Assembly (NCBI GenBank): GCA_947501265.1
Contig: CANMVY010000008.1
Location: 1 to 64,000 of the forward strand
Length of the DNA stretch: 64,000 bases
Direction: 5' to 3'
From: Bacteroidota bacterium
Lineage (GTDB): Bacteria > Bacteroidota > Bacteroidia > UBA7662 > CANHCV01
The position numbers were made by a program, and so were the translations under genes. The notes beneath the pieces were generated by a model that was not told the DNA's origin, searched no databases, and was given only the letters and a program-made list of their open reading frames with translations. Each line of letters begins with the position of its first letter. Within the stretch, counting starts at the first letter, position 1. Below are positions 11,138 to 16,235 of the stretch, in pieces.

Positions 11138-11641
11138 ATGAAAAAGCTCCTAAAAACCCTCTCCATTTCTCTTTTTGCCCTAACGGCCTTGTTTTTTGTT
11201 TCCGCGGATGCCCCTGGGCTTCCAAGCGTAAAATTGAAAAACTTAAAAGGTCAATCGGTTGATATACAAGATTTTGCAAAGTCAGGCAAACCGGTTGTGA
11301 TTTCTTTTTGGGCAACCTGGTGTTCTCCATGCAAAAAAGAATTGAACAACATTGCCGACATTTATGACCAATGGAAAGAGGATTACGGAGTAGAAATCAT
11401 TGCCATTAGCGTGGACGATGCTCGAAACACCGATAAGGTGAAAAGCTACGTGAACGCAACGCAATGGCCATTTACGGTGCTATTGGATCCCAATGAAGAC
11501 ATGAAAAGAGCATTGAATTTCCAAACGGTACCTTACACCTTGTTGTTGGATAAAAAAGGAAATATCGTTTATCGCCACAACTCGTATGTGGATGGTGATG
11601 AATACATTTTAGCCGATGAAATCAAAAAAGTTGCGAAGTAA
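11138..11641 (+). CDS. TlpA-family thiol-disulfide oxidoreductase
   Basis: A start at the ATG at 11138 gives 167 residues and a proper signal peptide (KKLLKTLSISLFALTALFFVSADA). The thioredoxin fold has the active site WCSPC (Cys62 and Cys65) and the cis-Pro loop TVPYTLLLD. Such proteins reduce disulfides outside the cytoplasm, for example for cytochrome c or cofactor maturation. It overlaps the next gene by 26 bp, a Rieske-like lipoprotein that is Cys-rich near its C-terminus. That protein could be a redox partner, but this is inference from context. Confidence 0.9.
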   Translation: MKKLLKTLSISLFALTALFFVSADAPGLPSVKLKNLKGQSVDIQDFAKSGKPVVISFWATWCSPCKKELNNIADIYDQWKEDYGVEIIAISVDDARNTDKVKSYVNATQWPFTVLLDPNEDMKRALNFQTVPYTLLLDKKGNIVYRHNSYVDGDEYILADEIKKVAK

Positions 11642-12080
11642 GTTCTTGCCAACTTCCCTTAAAATTTGGGTTATTTCCCTACTTTCAGTTGGGTTTTCGG
11701 CTTGTCAACGCAACAATCCCGACTGGGTGCCGGCCTATCCCGTAGACGTTTTCATTTCATTGGATGATCCTTCCTTTTTAAAATTGAAAAATTTTGGAGG
11801 AGCGGCCACCGTTCAGCCCAGTTACGGCGGAAGAGGAATTGTCATTTACCGGAACGGACCCGAGTCGTTTTCTGCCGTAGAACGAACCTGTTCTTACCGA
11901 TATACCGACTCTTGCGCAAGGGTAAACATCAGTTCCGACGAAATTTGGTTGGAATGTCCTTGTTGCGGAAGTCGTTTTACGTTCGATGGTCAGGTTTTGA
12001 ATGCCCCCGCAAATTTGCCCTTGCGAACTTATCAAACCAGTTACAGCCCCACAAACAATACCTTACGCATTTATCAATAA
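11616..12080 (+). CDS. Rieske-like lipoprotein lacking the cluster histidines
   Basis: The protein has 154 residues. The lipobox SVGFSAC puts the lipid Cys at residue 30. The C-terminal half follows the Rieske pattern, but CxH is replaced by Cys92-Ser-Tyr94 and CPCH by Cys114-Pro-Cys116-Cys117, followed by GSRF and a PANLPL loop as in true Rieske proteins. A standard [2Fe-2S] cluster needs two His and two Cys, so this protein either binds a different metal site with its extra Cys (92, 100, 114, 116, 117) or none. It overlaps tlpA by 26 bp and precedes dut by 4 bp. Confidence 0.8.
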
Positions 12081-12084
12081 ATCC

Positions 12085-12519
12085 ATGACCGTTTCCATCA
12101 TTAATCAATCGCCCTATCCGTTGCCAGAATACGCTACCGAAAGTTCGGCAGGAATGGATTTGAGGGCACATCTCTCTGCTCCTGTTGTTTTGGAACCCGG
12201 TTCGCGCACCATTGTTCCAACCGGCCTGTTCGTTGCATTGCCTTCCGGCACCGAAATGCAAATTCGACCTCGTTCTGGATTGGCTGCAAAATTCGGTGTA
12301 ACGGTTCTCAATGCTCCCGGCACCATCGATGCCGATTATCGGGGAGAAATTGGGGTGATCTTGGTCAACCTTGGGAAGGAAGATTTCGTTATTCAACCCG
12401 GAGAGCGAGTTGCTCAAGCCGTTTTGGCCAAATACGAACGAATTTCATGGAAAGAAACACAACAATTGAGCGAAACTACAAGGGGAGACGGCGGTTTTGG
12501 AAGCACGGGGGTTCGATGA
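12085..12519 (+). CDS. dut: dUTP diphosphatase
   Basis: The ATG at 12085 gives 144 residues, the usual trimeric dUTPase length. All five motifs are present: [38 protein letters not shown], and the C-terminal GDGGFGSTG that closes over the active site. The enzyme hydrolyses dUTP to dUMP and diphosphate, keeping uracil out of DNA and supplying dTMP synthesis. Its stop overlaps the next start by 4 bp (ATGA). The order dut, TPR lipoprotein, DUF4292, M23 protein is a familiar Bacteroidota arrangement. Confidence 0.96.
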
Positions 12520-14225
12520 AAAATCTCGGACTTCTTTTATTCCTTTTTTGTCTCGGGTGCATCTCCCATCCCAAAGAAAGCACCAAACCTGCTTCACTAT
12601 CGTCGGAACAACGCGATTTGTTCGATGAGTATTTTTATCAAGCAGAAGCCGCCCGTCAGCGCAACCAAGTGGCCGATGCGTACAAATGGTACGAAAAAGC
12701 AAGCGCGCTCCAACCGAGTTCAGGAAATGCTTGGTACCAAATGGCGCGCATCTCCTTGGAAAATAACCAACTCCAACGCGCTTGGGAACAGTCGCAAAAG
12801 GCCGTCCAGGCCGAGCCCAGCAATTATTGGTTTTTGCATTTGTATGCACAGCTTTCAACCCAAGGCCAAAAAGTGGCTGTGGTGAAAGAGGCGTATGAAA
12901 AACTGATTCAGCTCAAACCCCAAGAGGCCACCAATTATTTGGAAATGGCCAATTATTTCGCCCAAAACGGTCAGCCGAAATCATCGGTGGAATACTTGGA
13001 TCGATTGGAAAAAATCATCGGTCCAGATTTGGACATCACCGAATTGAAAATGGAGCTTTACCAGTCCATGAGGAAACCCGAAATGGCTTTGAAAGAAGCG
13101 CTGAAATACCAACAAACGGCTCCCGAAGATTTGATGGCTTCGATGATGTTGGTGAAAGCGTACCTCCAGAACAATCAGCGGGAAAATGCCGAAAAAATTC
13201 TCGTGGCCCAAGATCAAACCTGCTATCAAGTACAGTTGTTCTGGGCCGATTTGTACCGAAAAGATCAACGCATCGAAGATCAATGGATCGCCGTTGAGAA
13301 AGCGTTTCGCGATGATCGGATGGAGGTAACGGAAAAAGTTAGTATTCTCGCTCAGGAAATGATGTTCCGAACCAGCGAGTCAGACCGGGCAAGGTTGTTG
13401 AAATTGGCCGCCGAGGTGGTCGTGAAAAATCCGGAATCGGGAGCGGCCCATGCGTTGTTGGCCGATTTGTATTCTCAAAAAGAGGATTGGAAAAACGCCG
13501 CGATTCATCTGCAAAAAGCCCTTGAAAACCTCAAAGAGGGACAGAAAATGTTGCTTTGGCAACAATACCTGAATTGCGATATACAGTTGCAGTCGTACGA
13601 TAGTTTGGTGAAACATGCCCAACAAGCCATTTCCCTATATCCCAATCAAGCGTTGTTTTATTTCTATCAAGGGGTGGGTCACCTCCAACTCAAGCAACAT
13701 GCCGAAGCGGTTTCGGCCCTGAAGAATGCACTAGGTTTAACCACCGACGAAAAAGAATTGAGGGCCGAAATCTACCAAAACCTGGGAGAGGCCTACCAAG
13801 GATTAAAGAAGTTTTCCGCATCGGAAGAGGCGTTTGAAACCGCACTTTCCATCGTTCCCGACAATATTGGCTTGATGAATAACTACGCCTATTACCTCAC
13901 TCTTCGGAAAGAAAAACTCGATCGGGCTGAGGAAATGGCGAAGAAAGTGGTGGAAAAAGAGCCCAATCAACCATCTTACCTCGACACGTATGCTTGGGTG
14001 TTGTTTTGCAAAGGAAAATTCGCCGAAGCGCTTCCTCTGCAATTAAAAGCAGTGCAATTGGGAGGAGAGGGAAATGCTACTTTGGTGGAGCACCTGGGCG
14101 ATATTTATAGCCAGTTGGGTCAAAAAGAAAAAGCCCTGGAACAATGGAGAAAAGCAAAGTCTTTGGGAGCAGATCGTCCTGAAGTTTTGGATAGAAAATT
14201 GAGTGCACAAACGTACATGGAATGA
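12516..14225 (+). CDS. TPR-repeat lipoprotein
   Basis: The start is the ATG at 12516, which overlaps dut by 4 bp. The lipobox FCLGC has the lipid Cys at about residue 15. The rest of the 569-residue protein is a series of tetratricopeptide helices (for example [20 protein letters not shown] and [20 protein letters not shown]), ending with a typical capping pair. TPR arrays bind other proteins, and this one would sit on the inner face of the outer membrane or at the inner membrane. The neighbours, a LolB-like protein and an EnvC-like protein, suggest a part in envelope assembly. Confidence 0.88.
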
Positions 14226-15007
14226 GAAAGGCCTTAGGATATGTATTGCTATTGTTTTTACTTCTCGGAATAAAAGGGAAAAGCCATGCTCAACCCATCT
14301 CCAGTGAACAATTGTTGTGGATGAAAATGGTCAGTGAAACTGCGGAAGATACCGTTTCGTTTCAAAATGTTCAACTATCGGGGGAAGTAAATATTCAGCT
14401 GGGCGGAGGGATGCAAGCGGCCCAAGTGGTCATCCGCATGAAAAACGACTCTTGCATTTGGGCCACCGTGCGGGTGATGGGAATTGAAGGAATTCGGGCG
14501 ATGATTACCCGCGATAGCGTTTGGATCTTGGATCGTTTGAAAAGAACGTACACCGTTCAACCCCTGGCATCGTTCACGAAAATGCTGGGCGTTCAGGTAA
14601 GTTTAAAAACCCTTCAACAACAGTTTTTGGGAAAATTAAGTGAAATTCCGTCTTTCTTATCGTACCAAATGACCACCGTGAAAGACGGGGGAATGACCAC
14701 CTATCAAGGAATTTTTCAACCAACATCGGGCGACTCCCTGTTTGCCAATCGAAAAGTTGAACTAACGCGAAACGAAAAAAAGATGTGGCAATCGTTGGTA
14801 GTTGAACAAGATTCATCCAATTTCTCGTTGAATTACTCTACTTATATCATTCAAGCAGAGGGAGCTTTTCCCGGTTTGATAGAAGCCAGAAAATCATCAC
14901 TAACCGACCCCTTGTTTCAGCTTTCGTATTCAAAAATTGAATTCAAAAACGTCGAAACATTTCCCTTCAAAATTCCTGAGTCGTACCTTCGTGTTGATGA
15001 ACGGTAA
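14222..15007 (+). CDS. DUF4292 (LolB-like) exported protein
   Basis: The protein has 261 residues with a signal peptide ending at KSHAQ. The core MKNDSCIWATVRVMGIEGIRA followed by MITRDSVWILDRLKRTY is the signature of the DUF4292 family, which has an outer-membrane lipoprotein-receptor (LolA/LolB) fold. Members are proposed to handle lipids or lipoproteins in the periplasm. It overlaps the TPR gene by 4 bp and the EnvC-like gene by 11 bp, so the three are tightly coupled. No lipobox Cys is present, unlike many relatives. Confidence 0.82.
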   Translation: MRKALGYVLLLFLLLGIKGKSHAQPISSEQLLWMKMVSETAEDTVSFQNVQLSGEVNIQLGGGMQAAQVVIRMKNDSCIWATVRVMGIEGIRAMITRDSVWILDRLKRTYTVQPLASFTKMLGVQVSLKTLQQQFLGKLSEIPSFLSYQMTTVKDGGMTTYQGIFQPTSGDSLFANRKVELTRNEKKMWQSLVVEQDSSNFSLNYSTYIIQAEGAFPGLIEARKSSLTDPLFQLSYSKIEFKNVETFPFKIPESYLRVDER

Positions 15008-16235
15008 GCGATTCTTGTGGATTTTTTTAGGATGCCTTTGGGGCGCTACGGCATTGTGGTCTCAATCTCGGCCCGACCGCACCCAATTGGAGCGCGAGCG
15101 CGCTAGGCTAACCAAAGAAATTCGAGAGACCGAAAAACGCATCAAAGAAATATCTTCCCAGAAAAAGAAATCGGTGGCCGAATTGGAAGAATTGAAAAAG
15201 AAAATTTCCATTCGTGAGCAACTGATTCAGAATATTTCCCAGGATGTTTACTTGTTGAATGGCCAAATTGGAGATTTGCAAAAGGCCATTATGGACTTAG
15301 AACGCGACCTTTCGGCTTTGAAAAAGCAATATTCTGACATGCTTCGGTGGGCGTATAAAAACCGAAATAGCGTACAAAATGGTCTGTTTGTTGTTTCCGC
15401 ATCCGATTTTAATCAGGCTTACAAACGGTACAAGTATTTAGGGCAATACCAAAATTATCGGGAACAACAGTACCACGAAATTGTGGCCACTAAGCGATTG
15501 TTGGAGCAAAAAGTGTTGGAATTGAACGGTCGCCTAAACGAGAAAAGCAACTTATTGGTGGAAGAAAGTAGCCAAAAAGCGCAGCTTCAGTCAGAATCGG
15601 TAGAGAAAAAGGAAATGTTGGTGAATTTGCAAGAGGGGGAGAAGGATTTGCGGGAAAAATTGCAAAAGCAAGTGGCCTCACGCGAAAAATTGAATCGGGC
15701 CATCGAGAGTTTAATTCGTGCTGAAATTGAGGAGGCCCGAAGAAAAGCTGCCGCAGCGAACAAACCAGCTCCTGCTAGCGATCGGGAAGCCCTTGCGGCA
15801 ACCCCCGAAGCGTTGAAGTTATCCAGCGATTTTGCATCCAATCGCGGCGGATTGCCGTGGCCGGTTGGGCAAGGAAACATAGTTTTGCGCTATGGAACGC
15901 ACCCTCACCCCGTTTTGGATAATGTTCAAATTTCGAACAATGGAATCGATATCAAAACCAATCCCGGTGCTTCGGTGAAAGCTGTGTTCTCCGGTACCGT
16001 TACTGCGGTTTTCAATATTCGGGGTCTTCAAAACATGGTTATTGTACGCCACGGGCAATATTGTACCGTTTATGCCCACATCGATCAAGTATCGGTAAAC
16101 AAAGGAGATAAAGTCAAAGGCGGTCAATCGTTGGGAACCGTATTTACCGACCCTGAAGATCAAAAAACCGAGGTGCATTTTGAATTGTGGAATGGATTTA
16201 ACAAAATGGATCCTGAACCTTGGTTGAAACGATAA
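14997..16235 (+). CDS. EnvC-like LytM (M23) protein, probably non-catalytic
   Basis: The start is the ATG at 14997, inside the end of the upstream gene. The 412-residue product has a signal peptide (to about ALWSQ), a long coiled coil to about residue 250, an Ala-rich hinge and a C-terminal LytM domain. The zinc ligands are degenerate: the first motif reads NNGIDI instead of HxGxD, and the last reads EVHFEL with Glu in place of the first His of HxH. This is the pattern of EnvC-type activators of cell-wall amidases, which act in daughter-cell separation without being enzymes themselves. It is 4 bp before the glycosyltransferase gene. Confidence 0.85.
   Translation: MNGKRFLWIFLGCLWGATALWSQSRPDRTQLERERARLTKEIRETEKRIKEISSQKKKSVAELEELKKKISIREQLIQNISQDVYLLNGQIGDLQKAIMDLERDLSALKKQYSDMLRWAYKNRNSVQNGLFVVSASDFNQAYKRYKYLGQYQNYREQQYHEIVATKRLLEQKVLELNGRLNEKSNLLVEESSQKAQLQSESVEKKEMLVNLQEGEKDLREKLQKQVASREKLNRAIESLIRAEIEEARRKAAAANKPAPASDREALAATPEALKLSSDFASNRGGLPWPVGQGNIVLRYGTHPHPVLDNVQISNNGIDIKTNPGASVKAVFSGTVTAVFNIRGLQNMVIVRHGQYCTVYAHIDQVSVNKGDKVKGGQSLGTVFTDPEDQKTEVHFELWNGFNKMDPEPWLKR

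Follow-up and report, generated by a model that had tools for sequence, protein, structure and literature searches.

The window, that is, the whole stretch of 64,000 nucleotides analysed here from a Bacteroidota bacterium, carries an open reading frame (ORF) for a lipoprotein that we read as a cluster-less member of the Rieske fold, preceded on the same strand by a gene for a TlpA/ResA-like protein (Table 1). Downstream, positions 12085-16235 hold dut, a gene for a TPR protein, a LolB1-type gene (NCBIfam NF053559) and a coiled-coil ORF which we take to be EnvC-like; among the distant loci there are a few where the ORF just upstream of the Rieske-like gene is again LolB-like (4) or EnvC-like (3). 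The translation agrees with the reading given in the initial annotation, C92-S-Y94 ... C100 ... C114-P-C116-C117-G-S, and the five Cys reported there near the site are real, being counted besides the lipobox Cys30. The start codon is uncertain, because the ATG is absent from the sister genome, which reads K-R-K-S-K-K at that place, and the two alternative TTG codons are kept in both genomes. Therefore, the overlap described between this ORF and the thiol-disulfide oxidoreductase gene is uncertain as well: the two genes do adjoin, but the 26-nt overlap may be 11 nt or none. The coding sequences of the window and of the sister genome are separated by 32.0 synonymous and 10.0 nonsynonymous differences (dN/dS 0.075), and the ORF is under strong purifying selection.

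Table 1. Positions of the Rieske-like ORF, its upstream neighbour and the residues discussed in the text.
Feature	Coordinates	Strand	Remarks
TlpA/ResA-like thioredoxin-fold gene (FWATWCSPC)	11138..11641	+	Directly upstream neighbour
Putative cluster-less Rieske-fold lipoprotein ORF	11616..12080	+	154 aa from ATG 11616; conserved alternative starts TTG 11631 and TTG 11646
Cys30, lipobox Cys (GFSA-C)	11703..11705	+	Sec-type lipoprotein signal without twin-arginine motif; invariant in alignment A1
Cys92, former box 1 cluster ligand	11889..11891	+	Covaries with Cys117
Tyr94, site of the lost box 1 His ligand	11895..11897	+	
Cys100, first half of the classical Rieske disulfide	11913..11915	+	Covaries with Cys116; mapped on T. 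tepidum PetA
Cys114, former box 2 cluster ligand	11955..11957	+	Asp in most relatives; no covarying partner
Cys116, second half of the classical Rieske disulfide	11961..11963	+	
Cys117, site of the lost box 2 His ligand	11964..11966	+	Covaries with Cys92

The Rieske descent of the protein, and the replacement of both cluster His by Tyr94 and Cys117, had been proposed from the sequence and are supported by profile and structure-database matches. In particular, the Pfam Rieske model PF00355 matches the ORF with an E-value of 1.7e-7 and 31.5 bits, against a curated cut-off of 20.3, and in a phmmer search of the PDB cytochrome b6f Rieske chains align over residues 77-147 (E 3e-5 to 5e-5), a match in which the two ligand Cys align with Cys92 and Cys114, in that order, Tyr94 stands where the first His would be and the His of CPCHG is matched by Cys117. 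An AlphaFold2 model built from two sequences, the window protein and its sister, reached a pLDDT of 36. The Rieske ligand set is Cys-x-His ... Cys-x(1,2)-His, and the window protein reads C92-S-Y94 and C114-P-C116-C117 in its place; both Cys of the respiratory-type pair that lies beside the cluster, C100 and C116, are present and covary in the family. These roles are assigned because, in the excerpted account of T. tepidum PetA (PMC10492824), the ligands are C124, H126, C152 and H155 and the disulfide is C129-C154, making C100 and C116 the equivalents of the classical disulfide pair. Thus, of the residues first described as ligand positions, C92, Y94, C114 and C117 do correspond to such positions, and C100 and C116 belong instead to the disulfide. 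Judged by its sequence, the window protein is a Rieske homologue without the defining ligands and is not to be filed as a [2Fe-2S] protein. The only other Rieske match in its own genome is a 109-residue protein on contig 5 with an intact CPH...CSLH. When 49 diverse members were compared singly with PF00355, just 3 reached E <= 0.01, and therefore most of the family would escape recognition as Rieske.

Homologues were found by protein search in 17 of the 21 genomes of the order, all 17 with Cys at positions 92, 100, 114, 116 and 117; one of them (L020) was left out of alignment A1, whose profile was built from the other 16, yet it has all five Cys. At a threshold of E <= 0.001 this profile finds a match in 326 of the 395 class genomes, an upper figure for the family, given that some of the matches are canonical Rieske or longer proteins. 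The comparisons that follow use 266 rows, which are part of these 326 matching genomes and include 4 canonical rows: from 290 loci, 289 ORF matches were obtained at E <= 1e-5 and 286 at 1e-8, and 20 duplicates over the last 90 residues were then removed. A Cys anywhere in columns 96-104 was counted as C100, and the counts for column 114 come from a local-pair alignment, since a quick MAFFT alignment misplaced that column owing to a loop insertion. The loss of the ligands and the divergence of the sequence could also be expected of a former Rieske gene decaying neutrally, without function, towards loss; the low dN/dS, the retention of all five Cys wherever the order has a homologue and the spread of profile matches through the class, canonical and longer proteins among them, speak against such a decay, which we count as refuted by the purifying selection and to which we give hardly any credence.

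Among the 266 rows, position 94 is Tyr in 179, Phe in 27, His in 13 and Trp in 11, and position 117 is Cys in 221, Ser in 30, Asp in 5, Asn in 4, His in 4 and Thr in 2. The four proteins with H117 (L113, L115, L116 and L117) are all distant canonical CxH...CxxH proteins, and nine of the 13 with H94 do not have H117. The loss of the cluster-ligand His therefore spans a wide family; a loss peculiar to one strain, with homologues keeping His in the same columns, had been foreseen as the outcome that would undo the proposal, and it does not agree with these counts. The possible invariance of Cys117 and Cys100, also raised in the initial annotation, holds within the order (17 of 17) but not family-wide, where C117 occurs in 221 and C100 in 216 of the 266 rows. 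Ser is the usual replacement both at position 92 (31 rows) and at position 117 (30 rows). Two further candidate ligands were dropped: H101, since most genomes coded f3 and the order's f2 genome have His there whereas the window and L006 have Ala, and Y94, since its position is not conserved. Scans of viral contigs found no relative, and a plasmid search gave only partial matches, below 60% identity, to other Rieske-type regions. Some members have unusual architectures. Three loci (L087, L088 and L053, family code f11) have open frames of 267-338 residues, possibly fusions or N-terminal extensions, and three others (L114, L110 and L112) have rare CC...CPKC, C...CPDC or C...CPNC layouts without C116, and L114 also without C100, which look like four-Cys metal sites on a Rieske-like scaffold.

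The site Cys evolve as two independent pairs, C92/C117 and C100/C116, and common ancestry alone is insufficient to account for this. Both members of the first pair are present in 220 of the 266 rows, only C92 in 8, only C117 in 1 and neither in 37 (phi 0.88); for the second pair, both are present in 211, only C100 in 5, only C116 in none and neither in 50 (phi 0.94). The cross-pair values are far lower (92-100, 0.08; 92-116, 0.08; 100-117, 0.14; 116-117, 0.14), and the 8 rows with C92 alone include 4 canonical ones and 3 of a variant with C92, C100, C114 and C116. On a tree built without the five Cys columns, C92 and C117 undergo 12 changes each, 10 of them on common branches, where 0.49 are expected from branch length and the maximum in 2000 random placements is 4; C100 and C116 undergo 18 changes each, sharing 15.3 on average, with 1.1 expected and a maximum of 5 in 2000 random placements. 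Cross-pairs share 2.0-3.0 branch changes (P 0.03-0.17), and the same contrast between pairs and cross-pairs is seen in 13 bootstrap trees. A stricter test of independent pairs, restricted to well-supported branches, is underpowered, with 2-3 pairs among those listed. In APC-corrected mutual information the two Cys pairs rank second and third outside the signal peptide. The strongest coupling in that region, above either Cys pair, joins window residues 72 and 91, and probably reflects contact close to where the cluster once sat.

The fifth Cys behaves differently. Position 114 is Asp in 174 rows, Cys in 90 and another residue in 2, and C114 has no covarying partner. The number of Cys in the mature protein is even in 149 of the 176 rows without C114 and odd in 75 of the 90 rows with it, so that all Cys can pair in most of the class and one is left over in the order of the window. 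It is rather unlikely, but the main rival reading for that order, that in the five-Cys lineages C92, C114 and C117 form a three-thiolate mononuclear site for Zn, Cu or Fe in the former seat of the cluster, beside a C100-C116 disulfide, and that a C92-C117 disulfide arose only where C114 became Asp. In accordance with such a site, C114 occurs without C92 in just 1 of 90 rows, all 9 reconstructed losses of C92 fall on a background without C114, which holds 60% of the branch length, and C92 and C117 are lost as a pair in 1 of 86 C114 rows versus 35 of 174 D114 rows. This last rarity, which weighs against a reading with two disulfides, would follow equally well if C114 had been the first to go or if a three-Cys site needed to be whole. 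Furthermore, the excerpted work on T. tepidum PetA describes two ligand Cys that bind Zn without the cluster (PMC10492824). However, no fourth ligand is conserved, position 94 varying among C114 rows (Tyr, Trp, Phe or others); the phi values of C114 with C92 (0.27) and C117 (0.15) are well below that of the C92-C117 pair; and a variant in genomes coded f55 (L294-L299, L302-L304, L306, L307 and L325-L328) combines C92, C100, C114 and C116 with Asn94 and with Asp or Glu at position 117. As C117 is missing from this variant, C92 can there pair only with C114.

Two other observations concern this position. It is Cys or Asp in 264 of the 266 rows, and the Asp persists in the 35 D114 rows in which C92 and C117 are both gone; our guess is that Asp114 may stand in for a thiolate as acceptor of backbone hydrogen bonds. 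In addition, extra residues, mostly 9, lie between C114 and C117 in 43 of 86 C114 rows (CG-x-...-CC versus CxCC; for example L076, L078, L079, L081 and L086).

The export signal changes along with the site. Tat exports folded cofactor proteins, and Sec exports unfolded proteins. Ahead of the presumed lipobox, 19 of 23 canonical rows have the motif R[RK]x[FLMVI], against 15 of 282 cluster-less ones, a count in which the canonical group includes three other Rieske-type proteins (L118, L119 and L120) that were left out of the later MAFFT-based comparison. In the canonical relatives, of which most lie outside the class (L309-L324), the signal reads, for example, SRRSF or DRKEF, with a hydrophobic stretch and then a Cys behind it; the window protein has no such motif before Cys30, though its own genome encodes TatC. 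The Tat motif has been lost in step with the ligands, which therefore points to an apo-protein. These data bear also on the suggestion, made at first, that the site holds an all-Cys cluster. An all-Cys or mixed-ligand [2Fe-2S] cluster in an electron carrier of altered potential would agree with Cys at three of the four ligand positions and with a Rieske domain that is still recognised; nevertheless, Y94 is not conserved as a ligand, 174 of 266 rows have Asp for C114, 37 lack both C92 and C117, the Cys vary as two pairs and not as four ligands, and the signal is not Tat-like while that of the canonical relatives mostly is, and we regard this cluster as highly improbable. Of the options first listed, what stands is that the site is built on Cys across a wide family and that another metal is possible in the five-Cys lineages; the disulfide served by TlpA is not supported.

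A reading with two disulfides must also face the oxidative machinery of the organism. Searches of its genome gave no match to VKOR and none to DsbB, and no excess of even Cys counts appears among the predicted exported proteins in 464 kb of that genome, window included: with a crude signal prediction, and for proteins with 1 to 6 Cys, 15 Sec-type proteins have an even and 27 an odd count, and 7 lipoproteins an even and 6 an odd one. The organism of the window may lack the usual route to disulfides, and it is for this reason that a metal held by C92, C114 and C117 stays the main rival for its order.

The genomic neighbourhood offers no partner common to the family: the survey found none, the fixed neighbours varying by lineage. 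At least 7 of 266 loci have a TlpA-like ORF no more than 1200 bases upstream in the same orientation, the flanks being short in some of them; two of these seven are from the genus of the window and five, at 325-443 bases, from one other group. The co-occurrence with tlpA that the initial annotation proposed to look for is thus not a conserved linkage, the adjacency on which a TlpA partnership was based is not kept outside the genus, and the neighbouring tlpA is probably not part of the system. It is highly improbable, too, that the site is a thiol switch or redox-active disulfide which the TlpA protein keeps reduced or exchanges. The two genes do abut in the window and in the sister genome, and C114 would be an unpaired Cys beside a Cys pair, but to the scarcity of the linkage is added that in many lineages either Cys pair gives way as a unit to Ser and other residues that are not redox-active, with which a structural role of the pairs fits better than a redox one. 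Other lineages have their own fixed neighbours, an adenosylhomocysteinase-like gene in 77 loci and a hydroxyacyl-CoA dehydrogenase-like gene in 36 (names read from sequence). In 85 loci a small, very Lys/Arg-rich basic exported protein is encoded on the opposite strand beside the Rieske-like gene (for example L036:1995-2270), upstream in 76 and downstream in 9, at a median distance of 45 bases.

Taken together, we consider it probable, if short of assured, that the product of the ORF is an envelope lipoprotein with a Rieske fold which has lost its [2Fe-2S] cluster, is exported by Sec and is held by two disulfides. The protein would cross the inner membrane unfolded via Sec and the apo-domain would fold outside it, where two disulfides, C100-C116 and, in replacement of the cluster, C92-C117, would tie the two cluster-binding loops together. 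In the order of the window, C114 would then be an unpaired thiol beside the C92-C117 bond; alternatively, C92 may pair with C114, which is the sole second pairing open to the f55 variant. The domain would serve as a stable surface or binding module of the cell envelope rather than as an electron carrier. A more extended scenario, possible but on the whole doubtful, is a class-wide conversion of a Rieske electron-transfer lipoprotein into a cofactor-free one, in which Tat gave way to Sec, the cluster was replaced by a second covarying Cys pair and the order of the window represents an intermediate, whose three thiols left at ligand positions make up a three-Cys metal site on a Rieske scaffold.

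The family would provide a natural experiment with many replicates, in which an iron-sulfur cluster is lost and the Rieske fold is kept, and in which the sequence of change can be followed: His gives way to ordinary residues, Cys replaces one His, the two Cys pairs are then gained or lost each as a whole, and the signal for export shifts in step. In practical terms, the ligands of Pfam Rieske matches in this bacterial class should be checked before they are annotated as [2Fe-2S] proteins. A narrow search of open-licence papers found none on the present cluster-less family. Among known systems, the TlpA/ResA thiol-disulfide oxidoreductases are direct genomic neighbours in the window but have a different fold and are not conserved neighbours. 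The cytochrome b6f/bc1 Rieske proteins (PDB 8hn2, 5cxm; T. tepidum PetA) have detectable sequence homology and the same disulfide pair columns; unlike the window protein, they hold their [2Fe-2S] cluster by two Cys and two His and act within a quinol-oxidising complex. The closest known parallel, set beside the present family by its published description, is PSB33/LIL8/TEF5 of green plants and algae, in which, according to excerpts of two papers, a membrane-tied Rieske-like domain is devoid of iron- or cluster-binding residues; it differs in its location in the chloroplast thylakoid and in keeping only one Cys of the second motif, and these excerpts report no paired Cys replacement (PMC12164590, PMC8003979). 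Within the same phylum, the family profile finds its best non-degenerate matches outside the class in the canonical Tat-type Rieske lipoproteins (L309-L324), which keep CxH...CxxH and mostly R[RK]x[FLMVI] before the lipobox, but share with the present family the fold core, the lipobox, the C92 and C114 columns and, in many of them, also C100 and C116.
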